From NCBI RefSeq assembly GCF_026786305.1, contig NZ_JAJAYI010000064.1:48032-112031 (forward strand): a stretch of DNA of 64,000 nucleotides. Reading direction: 5' to 3'. Source of the DNA: Cryobacterium sp. GTDB taxonomy: Bacteria; Actinomycetota; Actinomycetes; Actinomycetales; Microbacteriaceae. Under the pieces are notes generated by a model that worked only from the letters and a program-made list of their open reading frames with translations, searched no databases and was not told where the DNA came from. The position numbers and the translations under genes are program-made. Every line of letters starts with the position of its first letter. The first letter of the stretch is position 1. Shown here piece by piece: positions 11,072-58,115 of the stretch.

Positions 11072-11839
11072 GTGAATGTTTTTCCTCTGCCGCTCCCCGC
11101 GCCCGCCTCCCTGCCCGCCGCCGTTCTGTGGGATATGGACGGCACCATCGTTGACACTGAACCGTACTGGATGCGCGCCGAAACCGAGCTCGTGGCCGAG
11201 TTCGGCGGTGTCTGGACTCAAGACGACGGCATGTTGCTGGTCGGATCCGGACTGTGGAATTCCGCGGCGATTCTGCAATCCCGCGGTGTGGAGCTCACCC
11301 CGAATGCCATCGTGGCTCGCCTCACCGACCGCGTGCAGGAGCAGCTGGCCGAACACGGGATTCCCTGGCGCCCCGGATCCCGCGAGCTCCTCCAGGCATT
11401 GAAAGCCGCCGGCGTACCAACCGCACTGGTGACCATGTCGGTGGAGCGCATGGCCCGCCAGATCATCGACCTCATTGATTTTCCCGCCTTCGATGTTGTC
11501 ATCGCCGGCGATATGGTCGCCAACAGTAAGCCGCATCCCGATCCGTACCTGGTTGCCGCCGACCGTCTAGGTGTCGATCCGCGGCTGTGCATCGCGATTG
11601 AGGATTCCGTTCCGGGCGTCGCTTCCGCTGTCGCCGCCGGGACCATTACCATCGCCGTTCCCCACCAGATCGACCTACCGGAGAGTATGTCCTACACCCG
11701 CTGGCCGACGCTCGTCGGGCGCACCCTCCTCGATATTTCGGCGCTGTATCAATTCTCGAACCCAACCGATTCAGCGGATCCCGTTAGTCCTCCCGCCCCC
11801 ACCGGCTTCGCCCGCAACGAAAGCGCACCACTCGCATGA
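11072..11839 (+). CDS. HAD-IA family phosphatase
   Basis: A 255-residue haloacid-dehalogenase-type phosphatase. Motif I is LWDMDGTIVDTEP, motif II VTMS, motif III the Lys in NSKPHPDPY, motif IV IEDSVPGVASAVAAG. The cap is helical (type C1), as in phosphoglycolate phosphatase and beta-phosphoglucomutase-like enzymes. Substrate unknown. TACACT lies 8 nt before the GTG at 11072, so a leaderless mRNA is likely; a GTG at 11051 would put that box inside the gene. Its stop overlaps the trmI start by 4 nt (ATGA), so the two are translationally coupled. Confidence 0.85.
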   Translation: MNVFPLPLPAPASLPAAVLWDMDGTIVDTEPYWMRAETELVAEFGGVWTQDDGMLLVGSGLWNSAAILQSRGVELTPNAIVARLTDRVQEQLAEHGIPWRPGSRELLQALKAAGVPTALVTMSVERMARQIIDLIDFPAFDVVIAGDMVANSKPHPDPYLVAADRLGVDPRLCIAIEDSVPGVASAVAAGTITIAVPHQIDLPESMSYTRWPTLVGRTLLDISALYQFSNPTDSADPVSPPAPTGFARNESAPLA

Positions 11840-17620: not shown

Positions 17621-20080
17621 GTGACGCACACGCAATCACCGGCCGAACGGTATTCGGCCGCGCGCATCCGGGCCAGCCAGCCGAAGCTGCTGGCTTTCGA
17701 GAGCAGGCTCAAATTCGACCTCGACCAGTTTCAGCGGGAGGCCTGTGCCTGCCTGGAAGCCGGCAATAGTGTGCTCGTTGCAGCCCCAACCGGAGCCGGC
17801 AAGACCATCGTGGCCGAATTTGCCATTTATCTGGCGATGCAGCAGTCCAGAGCGAAAGTGTTCTACACCGCGCCAATGAAGGCGCTCAGCAATCAGAAAT
17901 TTCAGGAATTCGTCGGTGAGTACGGTGCGGACCAGGTCGGGTTGCTCACCGGAGACAGCAATGTCAACCCGAAAGCACGCATCGTGGTCATGACGACCGA
18001 GGTGCTGCGCAACATGCTGTACGCCGATTCGGATCTGCTTACCGACCTGGCCTTCGTGGTGATGGACGAGGTGCACTACCTCGCCGATCGTTTTCGCGGG
18101 GCAGTGTGGGAAGAAGTGATCATTCATTTGCCGCAGCCGGTGCGCATGGTGTCGCTCAGTGCCACCGTGTCGAACGCGGAAGAATTCGGAGATTGGTTGC
18201 AGGCTGTCCGCGGCGAAACAGACGTGATTGTATCTGAGGAACGGCCGGTCCCGCTCGAGCAGCATGTGCTCGTCAAGAACAATATGCTCGACCTGTTCGA
18301 TTCCACCGGGTTGATCGGCACTCATCGGGTGAACCCCGAGCTCGTTCGTCTGGCGCACGCCGGCGGGCGCTCGGCCGGCGGCCGCGGCCGCGGTCCCGGC
18401 CGCCAGGGCGGCTCCTCCGGGGGCTACCGGGGACACGACAAGCAACGCCCGCAGTTCGACGCCGGCAGAATGGATCGCGGCGACATCGTGCGCATGCTCG
18501 ACGGCAAACATCTGCTACCGGCCATTTTCTTCATCTTCAGCCGGGTCGGCTGTGACCAGGCCGTGCGGCAGGTGCTCCGCTCCGGGGTGCGTCTGACACA
18601 AGAACACGAGCGTGACGAAATTCGCCAGATCGTCGACGACCGATGCCGCACCCTGCTCGACGAAGATCTCGGCGTGCTCGGCTACTTCGAGTGGCTCGAC
18701 GGTCTCGAACGCGGTGTCGCCGCCCACCACGCCGGTCTGCTGCCGGCGTTCAAGGAGGTCGTCGAGGAGCTGTTTCAAAAGAAATTGGTCAAGGCCGTGT
18801 TTGCCACCGAGACGCTTGCCCTCGGCATCAACATGCCGGCCCGCACGGTCGTTCTCGACAAGCTGGAGAAGTTCAACGGGGAGGCTCGCGTGCCGATCAC
18901 CCCGGGGGAGTACACCCAGCTCACCGGTCGTGCCGGTCGCCGCGGAATCGACACCCTCGGCCACTCCGTGATTCAGTGGGCACAAGGACTGGATCCACAG
19001 GCCGTGGCCTCGCTCGCCTCCCGGCGCACCTATCCTCTGAATTCGAGTTTCAAGCCGACCTACAACATGGCCGTCAACCTCATCGACCAGTTCGGGGTCG
19101 CGCGCACGCGCGGCGTGTTGGAATCGTCGTTCGCCCAATTCCAGGCCGATCGCGCTGTCGTCGACCTGGCCCGCTCGGTGCGTCAGCACGAGGAGTCCCT
19201 AGCAGGCTTCCAGACCAGCATGACCTGCCACCTCGGCAATTTCGAGGAGTATTCGTCCATTCGGCGGCGTCTCACCGAGCTGGAACGTGAGGGCGCCAAA
19301 GCCGACAATTCCCTGCGCGGTGAGCGTGACAAACGCCAGCGTGAGGTGGCCAGCCTGCGCAAACAGATGCGCGCCCACGGCTGCCACCACTGTCCCGACC
19401 GCGAGGCGCACTCCCGGTGGGCAGAACGCTGGTTCAAACTCAAGCGCCAAACGGATGCCCTCAACCAGCAGATCTCCCAGCGCACCGGAGCCATCGCCCG
19501 GGTATTCGACCGGGTCACCGACGTTCTTCTCGGCTACGGCTACCTCGAATCCGATGCGGGCGGCACGATCGCGCTCAGCGAGAGTGGACGCATCCTGCGC
19601 CGCATCTACGCCGAGCGGGACCTGCTCGTCGCCGAGTCCCTGCGCCGAGGCCTGTGGAAGGACCTCGATGCTGCGAGCCTGGCCGCGATGGCGTGCGCGC
19701 TCGTCTTTGAACCACGCCGCGAAGAGGGGCTCATCGATGCCCGCTACCTGCCCAAGGGACCGTTCCGACCGGCCCTCGATGAAACCGAGGACCTGTGGAG
19801 CCGCATCGACGACCTCGAACGCGACCACCAACTGCCCGGCAGTAACCCACTCGCTGTCGGCCTCAGCCTGGCAATGTGGAAGTGGGCTCGCGGCGCGTCA
19901 CTGAGCGACGTGCTCTACGAGGCGGAGATGGCGGCCGGGGATTTCGTGCGCTGGACCAAACAGACCATTGACCTGCTCGACCAACTCTCCAGTGCCGGCG
20001 ACGGGCAGGTCGGGCCGACCGCTCGGGCGGCCATGGACGCGATCCGTCGCGGCATCGTCGCGTATTCCTCGGTAGCCTGA
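17621..20080 (+). CDS. helY: DEAD/DEAH-box helicase HelY (Ski2/Mtr4-like)
   Basis: A protein of about 819 residues in the Ski2-like superfamily 2. Walker A APTGAGKT (residue about 52), DEVH in VVMDEVHYLAD, SAT in VSLSATVSN, motif VI TGRAGRRGIDTLG. A C-terminal DSHCT-type helical domain follows. Residues about 247-275 form an Arg/Gly-rich insert (GGRGRGPGRQGG), which is unusual. The family is expected to unwind RNA or RNA-DNA; no substrate is inferred here. GTG 17621 is preferred because GAAGGA ends 4 nt before it; a GTG at 17609 would add four residues. It overlaps nothing but is 7 nt from lnt. Confidence 0.9.
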   Translation: MTHTQSPAERYSAARIRASQPKLLAFESRLKFDLDQFQREACACLEAGNSVLVAAPTGAGKTIVAEFAIYLAMQQSRAKVFYTAPMKALSNQKFQEFVGEYGADQVGLLTGDSNVNPKARIVVMTTEVLRNMLYADSDLLTDLAFVVMDEVHYLADRFRGAVWEEVIIHLPQPVRMVSLSATVSNAEEFGDWLQAVRGETDVIVSEERPVPLEQHVLVKNNMLDLFDSTGLIGTHRVNPELVRLAHAGGRSAGGRGRGPGRQGGSSGGYRGHDKQRPQFDAGRMDRGDIVRMLDGKHLLPAIFFIFSRVGCDQAVRQVLRSGVRLTQEHERDEIRQIVDDRCRTLLDEDLGVLGYFEWLDGLERGVAAHHAGLLPAFKEVVEELFQKKLVKAVFATETLALGINMPARTVVLDKLEKFNGEARVPITPGEYTQLTGRAGRRGIDTLGHSVIQWAQGLDPQAVASLASRRTYPLNSSFKPTYNMAVNLIDQFGVARTRGVLESSFAQFQADRAVVDLARSVRQHEESLAGFQTSMTCHLGNFEEYSSIRRRLTELEREGAKADNSLRGERDKRQREVASLRKQMRAHGCHHCPDREAHSRWAERWFKLKRQTDALNQQISQRTGAIARVFDRVTDVLLGYGYLESDAGGTIALSESGRILRRIYAERDLLVAESLRRGLWKDLDAASLAAMACALVFEPRREEGLIDARYLPKGPFRPALDETEDLWSRIDDLERDHQLPGSNPLAVGLSLAMWKWARGASLSDVLYEAEMAAGDFVRWTKQTIDLLDQLSSAGDGQVGPTARAAMDAIRRGIVAYSSVA

Positions 20081-20087
20081 ACCAGCC

Positions 20088-21614
20088 ATGTGGGGGAGTG
20101 AGCGCACGTTCAGTCTGCCGCTGTGGGCATCCGTTCTCGTCGCAGCCGGTGCCGGAGTGGTTCTTGATGCCGGTTTTCCGGATCGAGACTGGTGGTTTCT
20201 CGCGCCGGTCGGTATAGCTCTGATGCTTGTCGCCCTGCTCGGTCGCAGCTTCGGCACCGGAGTGCTCGTGGGACTGACCGCCGGACTGTCATTCTGGTTG
20301 ACCCATATTTTCTGGATCACGCTGTACCTCGGCCTCGTTCCGTGGTTTGCGCTCGGAGGGCTGGAAAGCCTGTTCTTTGCCGTGGGACTCGGTTTCATTG
20401 CCGTCGTGTTGCGCTACGGTCCCCGGGTGTGGCCGAGCGTCTGGGCCCGTCTCGGGGTCGTGCCGGTGATCATCGCCGGCCTGTGGACGGCGCGCGAAGC
20501 GATCAGCGCTGTCTGGCCTTACGGCGGCTTCGCCTGGGGACGAGTTGCCCTGTCGCAATCGGAGAGTCCGTTCGGACCGCTCGTGGCCTGGGTGGGCATG
20601 TCCGGGCTGAGCTTCATGATGGTCTGGCTGAGCGCTCTCGCCGTGCAACTGGCCCGCGAACCCGATCTGGCGCGAACGCTGCGTACGGGCGTTGGCCTCG
20701 GCGCCGTCGCCGTGATCCTCGTCGTCCCGGCCTGGCCGACCATCGAGAGCGGCACGGCCCGCCTCGCCGCCGTGCAGGGTAACGCGGATGCCGGACTGTT
20801 CGCCGAGTACTCGCCGGGCCAAATTTTGCAGGACCACACCTCGGCCACCCTGCCGTTGATCGGCGAGAAGGTTGATTTTGTGGTCTGGCCGGAAAACGCG
20901 AGCGACATCGACCCGACCCGGTCAACGGCCGCTGCGCAGGTGCTCGACTACATCAGCACCGAAATGAATGTCCCGCTCATTACCGGCACCATCACCAAGC
21001 CCGAAAACACCTATTACAACAGCTCCCTGCTCTGGGAGGCCGGCCGTGGCGCCGTTGACGTCTACGACAAGGTGCATCCGGTTCCCTTTGCGGAATACAT
21101 GCCGGATCGGGCCTTCTGGCGACCATTCGCCCCAGAACTGATCGACCTCATCGGCCGGGACTACGGCATCGGCACTCGGGACAACATCTTCGACATCAAC
21201 GGGGTTCTGGCCGGTATCGCGATTTGCTTCGACATCGCCGACGATCAGCTCGTGCACGAGATGATCGACGACAAAGCGGAGATTATTCTCGCCCAAACCA
21301 ACAATGCCGATTTCGGGCACACCGACGAGAGCGTGCAACAGCTCGCCATCGCCCGGCTGCGCGCGGTGGAGACAGGACGCACGGTGGTGAATATCTCCAC
21401 CGTCGGATCGAGCGCCATCATCACTCCGGACGGACAGACCCTCGACAGCCTGCCGACCTTCACGGCGGGGGCCATGGTCCGAACGGTGCCGCTGAGCGAT
21501 ACCATCACACCAGCGATGATGGCCGGCCGGGGCATCGAATGGCTCGTGTCGGGGCTGGGTCTGGCCGGTCTGGCCCTCTGCGCCGGTGCCGCCCGGCGCC
21601 CACGATGCCGCTAG
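20088..21614 (+). CDS. lnt: Apolipoprotein N-acyltransferase Lnt
   Basis: A 508-residue membrane enzyme that attaches the third acyl chain to lipoproteins. Six or seven hydrophobic segments occupy residues 1-215. The periplasmic nitrilase-type domain carries the Glu-Lys-Cys triad: Glu in VVWPENASDID, Lys in YDKVHPVPFAEYMP, Cys in GIAICFDIADD. A last helix (GRGIEWLVSGLGLAGLALCAGAA) ends it. It starts 7 nt after helY. Two lipoproteins in this window (FKBP and CtaC) are plausible clients. No separate dolichol-phosphate mannose synthase domain is fused, unlike in some actinobacteria. Confidence 0.92.
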   Translation: MWGSERTFSLPLWASVLVAAGAGVVLDAGFPDRDWWFLAPVGIALMLVALLGRSFGTGVLVGLTAGLSFWLTHIFWITLYLGLVPWFALGGLESLFFAVGLGFIAVVLRYGPRVWPSVWARLGVVPVIIAGLWTAREAISAVWPYGGFAWGRVALSQSESPFGPLVAWVGMSGLSFMMVWLSALAVQLAREPDLARTLRTGVGLGAVAVILVVPAWPTIESGTARLAAVQGNADAGLFAEYSPGQILQDHTSATLPLIGEKVDFVVWPENASDIDPTRSTAAAQVLDYISTEMNVPLITGTITKPENTYYNSSLLWEAGRGAVDVYDKVHPVPFAEYMPDRAFWRPFAPELIDLIGRDYGIGTRDNIFDINGVLAGIAICFDIADDQLVHEMIDDKAEIILAQTNNADFGHTDESVQQLAIARLRAVETGRTVVNISTVGSSAIITPDGQTLDSLPTFTAGAMVRTVPLSDTITPAMMAGRGIEWLVSGLGLAGLALCAGAARRPRCR

Positions 21615-49399: not shown

Positions 49400-51889
<2,490 letters not shown>

Positions 51890-51938: not shown

Positions 51939-54017
51939 TTAGACGTCGATGCGGTCTCGGGAGAGTTTGTCGGAGCTGTCGATGATGAACTCCTTGCGCG
52001 GGGCGACGTCGTTGCCCATGAGTAACTCGAACACCCTTCCAGCGGCTTCGGCATCGTCGACGCGCACTCGCCGCAGCGTGCGGTGGGCCCGCTCCATGGT
52101 TGTGGTCGCGAGCTGGTCGGCATCCATTTCACCGAGGCCCTTATAGCGCTGGATCGGGTCCTGGTAGCGCCGGTTCTTCTTCTCCAGCGCACCCAGCACC
52201 GAGTGCAGTTCGGTCTCGGAGTAGGTGTAGATGGTCTCATTGGGTTTGCTGCCGGGATTCATCACGACGACCCGGTGCAGCGGCGGAACGGCAGCGAAAA
52301 CGCGGCCCTCGGTGATCATCGGCCGCATGTAGCGGAAGAACAGCGTGAGGAGCAGGGTGCGAATGTGGGCGCCGTCGACGTCGGCGTCGCTCATGATGAT
52401 CACCTTGCCGTAGCGTGCCGCCGACAGGTCGAAGCTGCGACCAGAACCGGCCCCGATCACTTGGATGATTGAGGCACACTCGGTGTTGGAGAGCATGTCG
52501 GCGACGGACGCCTTCTGCACGTTCAGGATTTTGCCGCGGATCGGCAGCAGCGCCTGGTGCTCGCTGTCGCGGGCGAGCTTGGCGGTGCCGAGGGCCGAGT
52601 CACCCTCAACGATGAACAGTTCACTCGTTGACACGTCATTGCTGCGGCAGTCGACCAACTTCGCCGGTAGTGACGAACTTTCCAGGGCATTTTTGCGACG
52701 CTGGGTTTCCTTGTGCGCCCGGGCGGAGATGCGCGACTTCATCTCGGCGACGATCTTGTCAAGCAGCAGCGCTGACTGGGTCTTATCGTCGCGTTTCGGC
52801 GAGGCGTATCTCTCGGCCATGGCCGTCGCGACGACGTTCGCGACGATCGCCCGCACCGCGGGGGTGCCGAGCACTTCCTTGGTCTGACCCTCGAACTGTG
52901 GTTCGGGCAGGCGTACGGTGAGCACGGCGGTGAGGCCTGCCATGACATCGTCCTTGTCAAGCTTGTCGCTGCCCACCTTGAGCCTCCGGGCGTTCAGGTC
53001 AACCTGGCCGCGCAGAAATTTGAGCAGCCCGGCGTCGAAGCCGGCCTGGTGGGTGCCGCCCTTGGGCGTGGCGATGATGTTGACGAAGCTCTGCACGATC
53101 GTGTCGTAGCCGGTCCCCCAGCGCAGGGCGATATCCACCTGGCAGTCGCGCACGAGCTCGGTCGGCACCATGGCGCCCTTCTCGGTGAGCACGGGCACCG
53201 TCTCGCTGAAGGATCCGCTGCCGGTCAGTCTCCAGGTGTCGGTGATCGGGGCATCCGTGGCGAGGTGTTCGACGAATTCGGAGATGCCGCCGTCGAACTG
53301 GAACAGGCTCGTCACCGGTTCATCGGTGCGTCGGTCGGCGACCTCGATGGCGAGCCCGGGAACGAGGAAAGCCGTCTGGCGGGCCCGGTTGAGCACCTCG
53401 TCGGTGTGGAACGTGGCGCCCTTGGTGAAGATCTGCCGGTCGGCCCAGTAGCGAATCCGAGTTCCCGTGACACCCCGCTTGACCTTGCCAATCACCCGGA
53501 GTTCACTGCGATTCTCGAACGGGCTGAACGGGGCATCGGGGCTTTTCTCGCCCGAATCGGCAAACAGGCCCGGTTCGCCGCGGTGAAACGACATGGCCCA
53601 GGTCTTGCCGTCGCGGTCGACCTCGACGTCGAGGCGCTCAGAGAGGGCGTTGACAACGGATGCTCCCACGCCGTGCAGGCCGCCCGACGCGGCATAGGAT
53701 CCGCTGCCGAACTTTCCGCCCGCGTGCAGCTTGGTGAACACGACCTCGACGCCGGTCAGGCCGGTCTTGGGTTCGATATCGACTGGTATTCCGCGGGCCG
53801 TGTCACACACCTCGACGCTGTGGTCGGGGTGTAACTCAATGCTGATGCTGGCACCGTGCCCACCCAGGGCCTCATCGACGGAATTGTCGATGATCTCCCA
53901 CAGGCAGTGCATCAGTCCACGCGAGTCGGTGGAACCGATGTACATGCCGGGGCGTTTACGCACTGCCTCCAGACCCTCAAGGACCGACAGGTGGCGCGCG
54001 GAATAGTCAGAGCTCAC
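51939..54017 (-). CDS. parE: DNA topoisomerase IV subunit B (ParE-like type IIA)
   Basis: A 692-residue GHKL ATPase plus TOPRIM protein. RKRPGMYIGSTDSRGLMHCLWEIIDNSVDEAL is the ATP-lid start; GGKFGSGSYAASGGLHGVGASVVNALSERL the nucleotide loop; EGDSALGTAKLARDSEHQALLPIRGKILNVQKA the TOPRIM Glu; IIMSDADVDGAHIRTLLLTLFFRYM the DxDxD. GTG 54017 is preferred because TATTCT lies 8 nt upstream; a TTG at 54026 is in frame. It converges on parC with a 49-bp gap. Paired enzymes decatenate chromosomes; gyrase should be elsewhere. Confidence 0.9.
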   Translation of the reverse strand: MSSDYSARHLSVLEGLEAVRKRPGMYIGSTDSRGLMHCLWEIIDNSVDEALGGHGASISIELHPDHSVEVCDTARGIPVDIEPKTGLTGVEVVFTKLHAGGKFGSGSYAASGGLHGVGASVVNALSERLDVEVDRDGKTWAMSFHRGEPGLFADSGEKSPDAPFSPFENRSELRVIGKVKRGVTGTRIRYWADRQIFTKGATFHTDEVLNRARQTAFLVPGLAIEVADRRTDEPVTSLFQFDGGISEFVEHLATDAPITDTWRLTGSGSFSETVPVLTEKGAMVPTELVRDCQVDIALRWGTGYDTIVQSFVNIIATPKGGTHQAGFDAGLLKFLRGQVDLNARRLKVGSDKLDKDDVMAGLTAVLTVRLPEPQFEGQTKEVLGTPAVRAIVANVVATAMAERYASPKRDDKTQSALLLDKIVAEMKSRISARAHKETQRRKNALESSSLPAKLVDCRSNDVSTSELFIVEGDSALGTAKLARDSEHQALLPIRGKILNVQKASVADMLSNTECASIIQVIGAGSGRSFDLSAARYGKVIIMSDADVDGAHIRTLLLTLFFRYMRPMITEGRVFAAVPPLHRVVVMNPGSKPNETIYTYSETELHSVLGALEKKNRRYQDPIQRYKGLGEMDADQLATTTMERAHRTLRRVRVDDAEAAGRVFELLMGNDVAPRKEFIIDSSDKLSRDRIDV

Positions 54018-54201
54018 AACAATCAAGAATACCGGCCCCGACCGGCAATCTTTCGCGCCGGGCTGCCCGGTGGCGGCTCAGAGCCCGGCATGACGCGTCT
54101 ACGCGGTAAGCGAAATACCGGCCGTTCATCTCGTCTTTGACCCCTTGGCGTGCTTACATTAGCAACGAGGGTTCATGCAATTAACTCTGGAGGAGGAGAA
54201 T

Positions 54202-54438
54202 ATGTCCCAGATCGCCACCGGAAATGGTGCTGTAGATAACCAGGGCGCCCCCCACCAGCTCACCGCAGCCGACCGCTGCGACGCTTGCGGCGCCCAGGCT
54301 TACATTCGCGTCGTCGTGAAGAACAGCGAACTGCTGTTCTGCGCCCACCACGGCCGAAAGCACCAAGAGAAGCTCGCGAGCATTGCCGAAAGCTGGCACG
54401 ACGAGTCAAGTCGTCTGCTGGAAGATCAGCGTTCCTAG
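54202..54438 (+). CDS. DUF7455 small zinc-binding protein
   Basis: A 78-residue protein. ADRCDACGAQAYIRVVVKNSELLFCAHH carries CxxC and CAHH, a likely zinc site, followed by a charged helix (GRKHQEKLASIAESW). Resembles the actinobacterial DUF7455 proteins, of unknown role. ATG 54202 has GGAGGAGGAGAA directly upstream, an unusually strong ribosome site, suggesting high expression. It has its own terminator at 54473-54517. Confidence 0.75.
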   Translation: MSQIATGNGAVDNQGAPHQLTAADRCDACGAQAYIRVVVKNSELLFCAHHGRKHQEKLASIAESWHDESSRLLEDQRS

Positions 54439-54545: not shown

Positions 54546-55304
54546 TTATTCCACCGGTTGCCCCAAGCGCGCGGCCACCTGGTTGCGTGCGGCCTGCGCG
54601 GTCTCATCAACGAATTCCGCCCTGGCACCTCGCGCATACTCGAGTCCGTGGCGGGTGAACGCAGCCCGCAGCAGGTGGTCCGCGAGTGCGGGATTGCGCG
54701 CGAGAACCGGGCCGTGCAGGTGGGTGCAGAACACCTCTCCCATGGTCAGTCCCTCGATCAGCGGACCGGACGCTCGGTAACCGTTTCCGGTCCCGTAGAG
54801 CACACGTCCGAGCGGGCTGGCTTCGGCGCCGATGTAGTCACGGGCGTGGTTCTCGAACCCGATCAACCTGCCATATTTTGAGGCGACAATGATGTCGTCG
54901 GTGGCGCGAGCCGCCCGCGGCGCGGCCTGACCGGCCACGAGCCCGAGGCCCTCAATAACGGTGCCGTCGGCACGGTCGATGCCCCAGCTCAGCAGTTCCC
55001 AGCCGGTACCGACGGCCAGCACGGGCACTTTGGAGTTGGACCAGACTCGAAGCTCCTGGACCAGGGTACGCAGCGCGTCGCGGGCCGGCAGGATCGCAGC
55101 ATCCGTTCCCGAACCGATCGACACAGCGTCGACCTGTTCGGGCAGGTCGGCACGGCAGTGCACGTCGACGACCTGCGCGTCGTGGCCGCCCCAGCGAATC
55201 CGTTGCGCGAGCACCCGGGCATTGCCGGCATCTCCATTGGTGTCGAGCAGGCGGGGCAGCAGCGATACGACAGTGAACGGCCGCTGAAGCGAAGTGGCGG
55301 TCAT
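54546..55304 (-). CDS. GatD-like glutamine amidotransferase lacking the catalytic Cys
   Basis: A 252-residue protein of the CobB/CobQ-type class I glutaminase fold, as in GatD, the partner of MurT. Fold marks: LLDTNGDAGNARVLAQRIRWGG, GFENHARDYIG, and THLHGPVLARNP with the catalytic-type His197. Where GatD has AxCGGYQ, this protein has AVGTGWELLS, so Gly99 stands in place of the nucleophile Cys. The canonical oxyanion-side GGGQD is GSGTD here. Glutaminase activity is therefore unlikely. It follows the murT-like gene with the stop and start codons touching, so the two are translated together and probably form a complex. Confidence 0.85.
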   Translation of the reverse strand: MTATSLQRPFTVVSLLPRLLDTNGDAGNARVLAQRIRWGGHDAQVVDVHCRADLPEQVDAVSIGSGTDAAILPARDALRTLVQELRVWSNSKVPVLAVGTGWELLSWGIDRADGTVIEGLGLVAGQAAPRAARATDDIIVASKYGRLIGFENHARDYIGAEASPLGRVLYGTGNGYRASGPLIEGLTMGEVFCTHLHGPVLARNPALADHLLRAAFTRHGLEYARGARAEFVDETAQAARNQVAARLGQPVE

Positions 55305-56579
55305 TTACGATTCCTCAGCATTGGAGACGAGGCCGAGGTGGGCGCGGGTGCGCCGCATACCGTCGGCGGAGAAGATAATGGTTTTCACCCCGGATGCGGG
55401 ATCAGGCAGCGCCAGGAACGCGTCGAGGGCAGTCGGGACATCGGGTTCGATGCGGTCGACCTGCACATTGTCATAGGCGAGCTGCAGGGCGATGTCGTGC
55501 GCCTTGAGCCCCGAGGCGATGAGCACGTGGCGGAGCCCGGAGGTGTCCACCGGCCAGAAATAGGACGGGTCGCGCACATCGGATCCGATGATCACCAGAA
55601 TCTGCTCGGTGTCGGCCTCGAGGCTGTCGACGTTGAGCTGAAAGCTTGACGGGTTTTGCACGAGTACGAACTCGATGGTCTTTCCGCCAACGGTGACGAC
55701 CTCGCCGCGACCGAAGACGGCCGGCATGGCCGACAGCGAGGCACAGGCGACGGTGGGATCGAAACGTTCCCCCAGCGTCGCCTGGGCCGTGCACAATGCG
55801 GTCAGTGCGTCGACGGCATAGTGAATGCCGCGGGCCGGTAAGCGGATGCTGTGCCCGTCCGTGCCAAATTCCACGGCAGCGTCCCGGCCGACCACGCGTG
55901 TCAGCTGCAGCCCGATACCGGTGGGCAGGCGATTCGGTGTGGTCTCGGCGTAGCCGAGTCCGCGGGGATACTGGCCGAGAACGGCGGGGGTCACGCCGTA
56001 ACGGGCAACCCGCACGGTCGGTTCGAGGGCCGAGCCGAGCTCGGCCAGATAGCGGTCATCGGCGTTGAGCACCACGGTTTCCGTGGCCCGAGTGGCGATT
56101 TTCGCGAGCAGGGCAGCGACCATCTCGGAGTCGTGAAAGCGATCGATCTGATCGACCATGACGTTGGTGAGGGCGACAACTCGCGGGTTCAACGACCCGG
56201 CGATGAACGCGCCGTGGCCTTCGTCCATTTCGAGCACGGCCACATCCCCGGCGATTCGCCCGGACAGGCCGACCCGTTCCAGGAGGGCGCTGGTCAACCC
56301 CTGGCTGATGTTCGCCGTTGACTGGTTGGTGAACACGGTCAGGCCGTGGGCCCGCAGAACGGCGACGAGCATCTTTGTCGCCGTTGATTTGCCGCTGGAC
56401 CCGGTCACGATCACCAGCCCGAGGGGGAAGCCGTTGAGCGTCGCGGCCAAGAAGCCCGGGGCGATGCGGTTGACCACGACCCCGGGGATGGCTGAGCCAC
56501 CGCCCGGCTTGCGCCAGCGGGCCAACACTCGAACGGCTCGACCGACCAAAATTGCGGGGGCATACCGAAGGGAACTCAC
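55305..56579 (-). CDS. MurT-like Mur ligase without zinc ribbon
   Basis: A 424-residue Mur-ligase-family protein. P-loop TGSSGKST at residues 59-66; EMDEGHGAF; NVMVDQIDRFHD (residues 139-150); LNADD (171-175); LVQNPSSFQL (306-315) and DVRDPSYFWPVD (334-345), which hold the MurT ATP and Asp blocks. The middle region (about 190-240) has no Cys4 zinc ribbon of the type found in canonical MurT; the only Cys are 263 and 279. MurT with GatD amidates the D-Glu alpha-carboxyl of lipid II in other Gram-positives. GTG 56579 is 43 bp after sigA; the frame is open further upstream into sigA. Confidence 0.85.
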   Translation of the reverse strand: MSSLRYAPAILVGRAVRVLARWRKPGGGSAIPGVVVNRIAPGFLAATLNGFPLGLVIVTGSSGKSTATKMLVAVLRAHGLTVFTNQSTANISQGLTSALLERVGLSGRIAGDVAVLEMDEGHGAFIAGSLNPRVVALTNVMVDQIDRFHDSEMVAALLAKIATRATETVVLNADDRYLAELGSALEPTVRVARYGVTPAVLGQYPRGLGYAETTPNRLPTGIGLQLTRVVGRDAAVEFGTDGHSIRLPARGIHYAVDALTALCTAQATLGERFDPTVACASLSAMPAVFGRGEVVTVGGKTIEFVLVQNPSSFQLNVDSLEADTEQILVIIGSDVRDPSYFWPVDTSGLRHVLIASGLKAHDIALQLAYDNVQVDRIEPDVPTALDAFLALPDPASGVKTIIFSADGMRRTRAHLGLVSNAEES

Positions 56580-56622: not shown

Positions 56623-57915
56623 TTACTCGAGGTAGTCGCGCAGGGACTGCGACCTGGACGGGTGACGAAGCTTAGCCATCGTCTTGGACTCGATCTGGCG
56701 AATGCGCTCGCGCGTGACACCGAAGGTGTCACCGATCTGGTCGAGGGTCTTCGGCATGCCGTCGCCGAGGCCGAAGCGCATGCGGATCACACCGGCTTCG
56801 CGCTCCGAGAGCGAGTCGAGCAGGCTTTCCAGCTGCTTCTGCAGCATGGTGAAGCCCACGGCATCCGCTGGTACAACGGCCTCGGTGTCTTCGATGAGGT
56901 CACCGAATTCGCTGTCGCCGTCTTCACCCAGCGGGGTGTGCAGGGAGATCGGTTCGCGCCCGTACTTCTGCACCTCGACGACCTTTTCGGGCGTCATGTC
57001 GAGTTCGCGGCTCAGCTCTTCCGGCGTGGGTTCGCGACCGAGGTCCTGCAGCATCTGGCGCTGTACCCGGGCGAGCTTGTTGATGACCTCGACCATGTGC
57101 ACCGGAATGCGGATCGTGCGGGCCTGGTCGGCCATGGCGCGGGTGATCGCTTGGCGAATCCACCAGGTGGCATAGGTGCTGAATTTGAAGCCCTTGGTGT
57201 AGTCGAACTTCTCCACCGCACGAATGAGGCCGAGGTTGCCCTCCTGGATCAGGTCGAGGAACTGCATGCCACGGCCGGTATACCGCTTGGCGAGCGACAC
57301 GACGAGACGCAGGTTGGCGCCGAGGAGGTGGCTCTTGGCCCGGGCACCGTCTTTGGCAACCCACTGCAGCTCGCGGCCGAGGGAATTCTTCTTCTCGACG
57401 TCGGTCATCTCCGACAGCTTGTCTTCCGCGAACAGCCCGGCTTCGATCCGCATCGCCAACTCGACCTCTTCAGCCGCGTTGAGCAACGCGACCTTACCGA
57501 TCTGCTTAAGGTAGTCCTTGACCGGGTCAGCCGTGGCGCCGGTGATGGCGCTGGAGTACACCGGAACCTCGTCGTCGTCGTCGACGAGCGAGAGCACGAG
57601 GGCCCCGCTGGGAAGCGGTTCCGTTGACGCCGTGCGCTTGGTGCTGTCGTCGTCTGCCTCTTCTTCGTCGGCCTCGGAACCGCCATCAACGTCGGCGTCG
57701 TCGTCTTTCTTGACGGATTTCGCCTTGGTGACGCGCTTCTTCGGCGCCGGCTTGTCGGCGACCGCTTCAAGAGCCGCGGACTTCTTCGTCGCTGCGGCCT
57801 CGGCGGCAGCGGCTTTCGCAGCTGCAGCCTTGGTGACGGTCTTCTTGACCGGCGGTACTACTACGGGAGTCGTGACGGACTCGTCGGTCACCTCGGTCTT
57901 GACGGTGGTTGCCAT
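56623..57915 (-). CDS. sigA: Principal RNA polymerase sigma factor (SigA/HrdB type)
   Basis: A 430-residue group 1 sigma factor. The N-terminal 110 residues are Ala/Lys- and then Asp/Glu-rich, followed by [25 protein letters not shown] (region 1.2), [57 protein letters not shown] (regions 2.2-2.4), [19 protein letters not shown] (3) and [44 protein letters not shown] (4.2). ATG 57915 has AGAGG 7 nt upstream. A TTGACA on the minus strand at 57999-58004 may be part of the promoter, with no good -10 seen. RbpA at 21687 is its partner. Confidence 0.96.
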
Positions 57916-58115
57916 TCGAACACCTCTCATGCGGAGTCTTACCTGCTTCTGTTGGCCGAAAAGGAGCCAGAAGCGTTTTTGGGCAGAACTTGGACCCATG
58001 TCAAGTCCCGGGATACCCATGCCAAAATGATGTCAGCATGCCCCGGACCAGAACGGGTCCTAAAGACAATTATTGCACGGATTGTCTGGACGACAAGCCA
58101 CGACACGTACTACGA

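Follow-up and report, generated by a model that had tools for sequence, protein, structure and literature searches.

Lipid II isoglutaminyl synthase, known from Staphylococcus aureus, Streptococcus pneumoniae and Mycobacterium tuberculosis, is formed by MurT, a Mur ligase relative, and GatD, a protein with the class I glutamine amidotransferase fold. Mur ligase relatives have also been adapted to other wall peptides, as in the archaeal pseudomurein peptide ligases pMurC and pMurE and the archaeal MurT-GatD. For decades, type-B peptidoglycan, the wall type of Erysipelothrix and Acetobacterium among others, has served as a hallmark in chemotaxonomy, and we know of no enzyme that attaches its interpeptide bridge to D-Glu. 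A search of the open-access literature found no paper joining MurT, GatD and Microbacteriaceae, or type B peptidoglycan and MurT, and no bridge-attaching enzyme among the matches listed. Here we describe a MurT-GatD pair encoded in a 64,000-nucleotide stretch of a Cryobacterium sp. contig (NZ_JAJAYI010000064.1), the whole of which is referred to as the window. The pair lacks the nucleophilic Cys of GatD and has probably been turned, as a complex working without glutamine hydrolysis, into a ligase that attaches the amino acid of the type-B interpeptide bridge. The two genes are:

54546 to 55304, minus strand: gatD, encoding a GatD-like protein of 252 amino acids with a class I glutamine amidotransferase fold (Gly99, His197, Arg133)
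55305 to 56579, minus strand: murT, encoding a MurT-like Mur ligase (Mur_ligase_M and MurT_C) of 424 amino acids, from a GTG at 56579

The pair resembles the isoglutaminyl synthase in gene order and in its tight coupling, the TAA stop of murT abutting the ATG of gatD with no gap between the genes. The domains are also the same, with GATase_3 in GatD and Mur_ligase_M and MurT_C in MurT, all above the Pfam cut-off (45.9, 52.6 and 30.6 bits, respectively). In a phmmer alignment to S. aureus GatD (5n9m/6gs2, E 5e-20), His197 and Arg133 correspond to His189 and Arg128, equivalences that were counted by hand from the printed alignment. The predicted fold of the GatD-like protein (mean predicted local distance difference test score 93.3) has 6gs2_A, S. 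aureus GatD, as its best match in the PDB by E-value in Foldseek (template modelling score 0.82). In the MurT-like protein, the P-loop TGSSGKST is present, as are the Glu equivalent to E108 (Glu117) and the triad Asp equivalent to D349; the Asp stands in RDPSYFW, against RDTSWIY in the alignment to 5n9m and 7q8e.

Other features set the pair apart. In the same phmmer alignment, Gly99 takes the place of Cys94, and the nucleophile elbow is altered, reading AVGTGWELL against TICGGYQF. The NCBIfam equivalog cut-offs for isoglutaminyl synthase are far from reached (84.8 of 800 bits for NF045635, 73.9 of 400 for NF045636, 92.9 of 450 for NF052463 and 64.2 of 800 for NF052464), and the genes are placed directly after sigA. 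There is also weak profile similarity to the pseudomurein peptide ligase group (NF053645); unlike the window's pair, the members of that group are archaeal, and Cys-less GatD is not treated in the available part of PMC11915815 (all papers are cited here for the parts available).

In S. aureus GatD, R128, C94 and H189 are each required for glutaminase activity, glutamine is found bonded to R128, and the C94G and C94S variants are inactive in lipid II amidation (PMC6113224, PMC5871853). Because the same Cys-to-Gly change inactivates the S. aureus protein and these three residues are essential there, the window's GatD has very probably lost all glutaminase activity but keeps the Arg that holds the substrate. 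No other Cys takes the place of the nucleophile in the aligned family. Nor was a second canonical MurT-GatD pair seen in the genome of the organism itself (3.06 Mb in 109 contigs, with a completeness score of 100%), in which the MurT_C profile has one match and a MurT search at E<=1e-40 finds one gene. Both genes are under purifying selection, the ratio of non-synonymous to synonymous substitution rates against four close relatives being 0.12-0.15 for GatD and 0.07-0.11 for MurT, and 0.26-0.34 against two more distant relatives. Together with the conservation of the Cys-less state across the family, these ratios rule out random decay or a pseudogene. Thus, the preliminary description of this locus, made from the sequence alone, was right about Gly99, about the retention of His197, of the GatD fold and of the MurT P-loop, and about a pair of genes that is intact and coupled; two of the findings that it had named as refuting its proposal, a Cys nucleophile elsewhere in the fold and a second canonical locus, were looked for with the results just given.

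The Cys-less state is widespread in the Microbacteriaceae, a family of largely environmental bacteria. Among 150 Microbacteriaceae genomes, 121 have a MurT-like match at E<=1e-80 (one fragment, in G099, is counted) and 29 have none. In the 115 genomes that were read, we found Cys-less pairs only in 97, Cys-type pairs only in 14 and both in 3, one being unreadable. Across all sets, 123 distinct pairs were found at the sigA site; none of the 121 that are readable has a Cys at the nucleophile position, which is occupied by Gly (84), Ala (18), His (9), Asn (4), Ser (3), Thr (2) or Gln (1). Arg133 is retained in 111 of these 121 pairs. The catalytic His is kept in 68, replaced in 49 and lies in a gap in 4 more, and the stretch that follows it (GPxLxxNP) stays even where the His itself is replaced. 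Away from the sigA site, 21 of 30 pairs in family genomes do have the Cys. The other nine comprise one cut by a contig end (L112), three with no sigA in a short flank (L012, L020, L027) and five distant types or second copies (L057, L058, L059, L121, L356).

Outside the family, Cys is present in 47 of 47 readable pairs at order level (48 pairs read, being 42 of 65 matches plus 6 from outgroup genomes) and in 35 of 37 readable loci at class level, where 38 loci were read out of 95 matches in other orders. The comparison of residue 99 with relatives that the preliminary description had proposed therefore gives Cys in 0/121 pairs at the sigA site against 82/84 outside the family. The two class-level exceptions, L397 and L399, belong to one genus of another family (g172) and carry Asp at the nucleophile position (AVVFAVDAGM), which would represent another, independent loss of the Cys.

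The MurT-like protein has two Cys in all, 16 residues apart; it contains no CxxC pair and so lacks the Cys4 ribbon, which consists of two such pairs in the middle domain, as the preliminary description had it. That description had also taken the parallel loss in both subunits as an argument for repurposing, which does not hold: by a pattern test, the ribbon is absent from 41 of 48 order-level pairs outside the family and from 14 of 38 class-level loci. Loss of the zinc ribbon is thus ruled out as a sign of repurposing, since Cys-bearing relatives often lack it too, and its absence does not distinguish the pair from the synthase. Nöldeke et al. likewise report the MurT ribbon in only a subset of bacteria (PMC6113224).

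The window's GatD is 83-85% identical to the GatD of two Cryobacterium genomes, and genomes of the same genus as the window's group with one Cryobacterium genome in a MurT tree. In this tree (99 rows, computed by a quick method), the window's type and a sister type form one Cys-less clade (Shimodaira-Hasegawa-like approximate likelihood ratio test support 99) beside a Cys-type clade (86). A second Cys-less type, the main members of which also follow sigA, forms a separate clade (97). It has a THNALEVLG-like loop, has lost the His, and its MurT mostly carries the Cys4 ribbon (L049-L056, L127, L243). The tree program warns of long branches near this second clade, so its exact placement is unsure.

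We turn to the site itself. In the window, the ligase pair stands alone, with no supply genes beside it, in an interval flanked as follows:

56623 to 57915, minus strand: sigA, the principal sigma-70 factor (Pfam Sigma70 regions 1.2, 2, 3 and 4), upstream flank
54202 to 54438, plus strand: a small convergent gene with DUF7455 (PF24254), placed between gatD and parE (domain match and synteny)
51939 to 54026, minus strand: parE, a gyrB-type topoisomerase subunit B, downstream flank (domain match and synteny)
49400 to 51889, plus strand: parC, topoisomerase IV subunit A, outer flank (domain match and synteny)

A scan with the SigA C-terminus, giving a sample independent of the 150 genomes, yielded 80 loci that were kept, 61 of them Microbacteriaceae-like; all figures from this sample hold among the matches listed. 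Of the 61, 33 have MurT-GatD after sigA (non-Cys in 33/33), 25 have a gene resembling CofE, coenzyme F420-0:gamma-glutamyl ligase (PF01996), 3 have neither (all Leucobacter) and none has both; five loci (L231, L236, L246, L249, L270) are not seen as far as parE. An ATP-grasp gene (PF14397) accompanies the CofE-like gene in 23 of the 25 loci, being absent from L251 and L275. The sigA-parE interval is thus a swap site for MurT-GatD and a CofE-like ligase. MurT-type loci include those of Cryobacterium, Curtobacterium, Rathayibacter, Leifsonia, Agromyces, Agreia, Herbiconiux, Galbitalea, Amnibacterium, Glaciihabitans, Pseudoclavibacter, Microcella putealis, Salinibacterium soli, Microbacterium aurantiacum and others. 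The CofE type is found in most Microbacterium here, two Salinibacterium, Microcella alkaliphila, Yonghaparkia, Pseudolysinimonas and Gulosibacter. Both states occur within one genus label in Salinibacterium, Microcella and Microbacterium, as well as in seven genera among the 150 genomes. In Microbacterium, either system (X) sits in the same frame, sigA-[X]-Alr-Alr-DUF7455-parE.

Three of the 61 loci are oddly labelled: a Stenotrophomonas contig and two metagenome-assembled genomes, assigned to Cellulomonadaceae and Actinomycetes. The first, labelled Stenotrophomonas maltophilia P13 (L262), bears a Microbacterium-like sigA-CofE-ATPgrasp-parE locus and looks like contamination or a mislabel. In Naasia lichenicola (L231), the Cys-less murT (near 11554) and gatD (19789-20493) are separated by about 7 kb, whereas the two genes adjoin each other in other loci.

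Whole-genome searches agree with the exchange. No MurT was found at E<=1e-40 in the 13 CofE-type genomes (of 25) that were searched whole. Among the 29 family genomes without MurT, sigA was located in 28. A CofE-like gene comes next in 19 of them, with an ATP-grasp gene (PF14397), often two tandem genes resembling alanine racemase and, in two loci, an EctB gene in its surroundings; the remainder show a transporter of the ATP-binding kind, no gene or the end of the contig (as in G044). CofE occurs in 24 of the 150 genomes: 21 belong to the 29 that lack a MurT-like gene at E<=1e-80, and 3 to the remaining 121; of these three, G053 and G123 have a distant MurT-GatD type beside CofE, and G147 has a weak CofE match elsewhere. 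Among family genomes with neither ligase, the sigA-parE interval contains genes resembling an amino-acid ABC transporter in L207 and L208 and no called gene in L209 and L210. The CofE-like gene, seen in L189-L212 and L228-L288, passes the Pfam cut-off (50 bits) and stays far below that of TIGR01916 (28 against 181 bits), and is thus a divergent relative. CofE joins an activated carboxyl to an amino acid, the same kind of chemistry as we propose for the MurT-GatD pair, although its protein family is a different one. That the CofE-like system and the Cys-less pair share a function would fit their exchange.

Genes that may supply the substrate stand beside either ligase. A pair of alanine-racemase-like (Alr-like) genes is present at the site in 13 of 33 MurT-type and 16 of 25 CofE-type loci. 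Ten genomes carrying this pair were searched, and each has one or more additional Alr matches outside the site, so that the pair probably does not encode the housekeeping racemase. In L192 (2650-4700), each of the tandem Alr-like genes matches only part of a domain, the N-terminal one in the first gene and the C-terminal one in the second, and tandems are also seen in L217, L223, L226 and others; possibly they encode a heterodimeric racemase for bridge diamino acids. An EctB-type diaminobutyrate aminotransferase lies in four sigA-parE intervals (L205, L212, L249, L286), that of L205 scoring 603 bits in NCBIfam TIGR02407 against a cut-off of 552. A general link of EctB with the site is unsupported, as 26 genomes were searched and only 3 have the gene above cut-off, including a Paeniglutamicibacter outside the family; the link rests on the four intervals.

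We infer the following mechanism. The MurT-like protein would bind the peptidoglycan precursor and phosphorylate the alpha-carboxyl of D-Glu with ATP, as its P-loop, Glu117 and known MurT chemistry suggest. The GatD-like protein, with no Cys and with the change that kills S. aureus GatD, would produce no ammonia. Instead, the former glutamine pocket with Arg133 would hold an amine donor of similar size, the amine of which would replace ammonia in attacking the acyl phosphate. The donor would most likely be the bridge diamino acid, D-diaminobutyric acid (D-DAB) in a Cryobacterium-like host and D-ornithine (D-Orn) in Curtobacterium, where D-Orn is the bridge amino acid. The bridge would afterwards be joined to D-Ala of the neighbouring stem, as is known for type B. 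In relatives, a CofE-like ligase, mostly with the ATP-grasp protein, may serve instead at the same site. MurT homology points to the D-Glu alpha-carboxyl of a wall precursor as the acceptor; the retained Arg133 hints at a GatD pocket that is still occupied by an amino acid; and the replacement of the pair by a CofE-like amide ligase, with racemase-like genes close by, suggests that an amino acid is what is joined. A reaction of this kind is what a type-B wall requires.

The wall types given in papers are those of genera and not of this organism. Microbacteriaceae have group B peptidoglycan (PMC10978784). Cryobacterium is B2gamma with DAB (PMC7033078, Table 3), one species having DAB and ornithine (PMC12113805); Subtercola and Agreia are B2gamma and Frondihabitans B2beta (PMC5945732). 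In Microbacterium, the diamino acid is D-Orn, L-Lys or DAB depending on the clade (PMC10757982). The bridge of Clavibacter (B2gamma) is a single D-DAB residue running from D-Glu to D-Ala (PMC9603630).

Other activities of the pair have to be weighed against bridge ligation. The MurT-like protein might use free ammonia to amidate the alpha-carboxyl of D-Glu, or that of the diamino acid in the bridge, and GatD would then be a mere scaffold. The retained MurT active site is consistent with this, as is the conservation of GPxLxxNP where the His is gone; yet a pure scaffold would have no need of the glutamine-binding Arg133, kept in 111 of 121 pairs, and the CofE-like amide ligase at the same site, with racemase-like or EctB genes beside either system, points to an amino-acid substrate. 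We therefore regard ammonia-dependent amidation as improbable. Slightly less improbable, though still unlikely, is an amino-acid ligase with another role, which would join D-Glu to an amino acid such as Gly, or act on a different wall precursor, and would not itself attach the cross-linking residue. Ligation of a first residue is conceivable since many Microbacterium bridges consist of Gly plus a diamino acid, and the type of ligase does not track the diamino acid. On the other hand, the single-residue D-DAB bridge of B2gamma Clavibacter (PMC9603630) leaves little else for the alpha-carboxyl in a B2gamma host.

Finally, the pair could be a dead relative that binds lipid II or other wall proteins, a pseudo-enzyme or regulatory complex. 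Replacement of the catalytic His as well, in the 49 pairs mentioned above, with a gap in 4 more, is what such a loss of function might look like. However, the P-loop Gly and Lys, Glu117 and other MurT positions are invariant in all 33 aligned rows of the types, purifying selection is strong, and the pair is exchanged with an enzyme family; this explanation seems very unlikely to us.

Ligation of the bridge amino acid by the Cys-less pair, which we favour, has to be reconciled with several observations that speak against it. Leucobacter is type B with DAB (PMC4804768), and in all three of its genomes the sigA-parE interval is empty (L269, L274, L288) and the only MurT-GatD is of the Cys type and lies elsewhere (L344, L339, L345); its bridge ligase must therefore be something else. 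Cys-type pairs only are present in 14 of the 115 genomes read, and 8 of 150 have neither a MurT-like (E<=1e-80) nor a CofE-like gene (G019, G022, G049, G051, G062, G119, G121, G146). A non-Cys GatD also exists outside the family, in the genus of L397 and L399. There is no simple correspondence between the diamino acid and the type of ligase: D-Orn is given for the greater part of the M. testaceum clade (PMC10757982), which is CofE-type here, and beside L-DAB for Agreia, MurT-type here (PMC5945732, as its flattened table reads). G094 has nothing between sigA and parE, its CofE gene being located on a different contig. The exchange counts are inflated by shared ancestry, which the Fisher values calculated from them ignore, so that these values carry little weight; the swaps within genera are better evidence for exchange than the overall numbers. 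As to supply, EctB was not found at E<=1e-60 in the organism's own genome or in the Cryobacterium, Rathayibacter and Leifsonia genomes searched, and the own genome has a single Alr match, which leaves its source of D-DAB unexplained.

A rule equating type B with a Cys-less GatD is ruled out by Leucobacter and the Cys-only genomes. The pair is not a universal type-B enzyme, and other solutions exist, as these genomes and those with neither ligase attest. The proposal in the preliminary description that the pair joins an amino acid or diamine to D-Glu is thus supported in part, on circumstantial grounds: a glutaminase that is very probably dead, a preserved MurT site, a family described as type B, exchange with an unrelated ligase and neighbouring genes for racemase-like proteins or, rarely, for diaminobutyrate formation. 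As a general account of type B it is not supported. Whether most of the Microbacteriaceae build their type-B wall through this one site is a question on which we see about even chances. In that scenario, the site would hold either a Cys-less MurT-GatD, arisen at least twice and with a D-diamino acid in its dead pocket, or a CofE-like ligase with ATP-grasp, the two being interchangeable and often accompanied by dedicated racemases. An attractive idea, which we offer as speculation, is that one-residue bridges would go with MurT and two-residue bridges (Gly plus diamino acid) with CofE and ATP-grasp; the loci L251 and L275 have CofE without the latter, and chemotypes for the sequenced strains were looked for and not found. 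For a comparison of Lys with Orn within Microbacterium, M. aurantiacum has the MurT type, and its chemotype was not found in the literature.

These results name candidate enzymes for attachment of the type-B bridge, so that the question becomes assayable. They point to an amidotransferase that has likely become a ligase for amino acids and has retained the pocket of its glutaminase, and they document unrelated ligase genes exchanged at one chromosomal site, even within one genus label.

Some details of the locus remain to be given. No Rfam family matches at gathering score between 49000 and 61000 of the window. The GTG start of murT at 56579 lies 43 bases past the sigA stop, and an alternative earlier start, GTG at 56732, would fall within sigA. 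The start of sigA itself (57915) is that called by the gene finder, an alternative open reading frame starting at 58020. The DUF7455 gene is a frequent downstream boundary of the site and is present there in many relatives.

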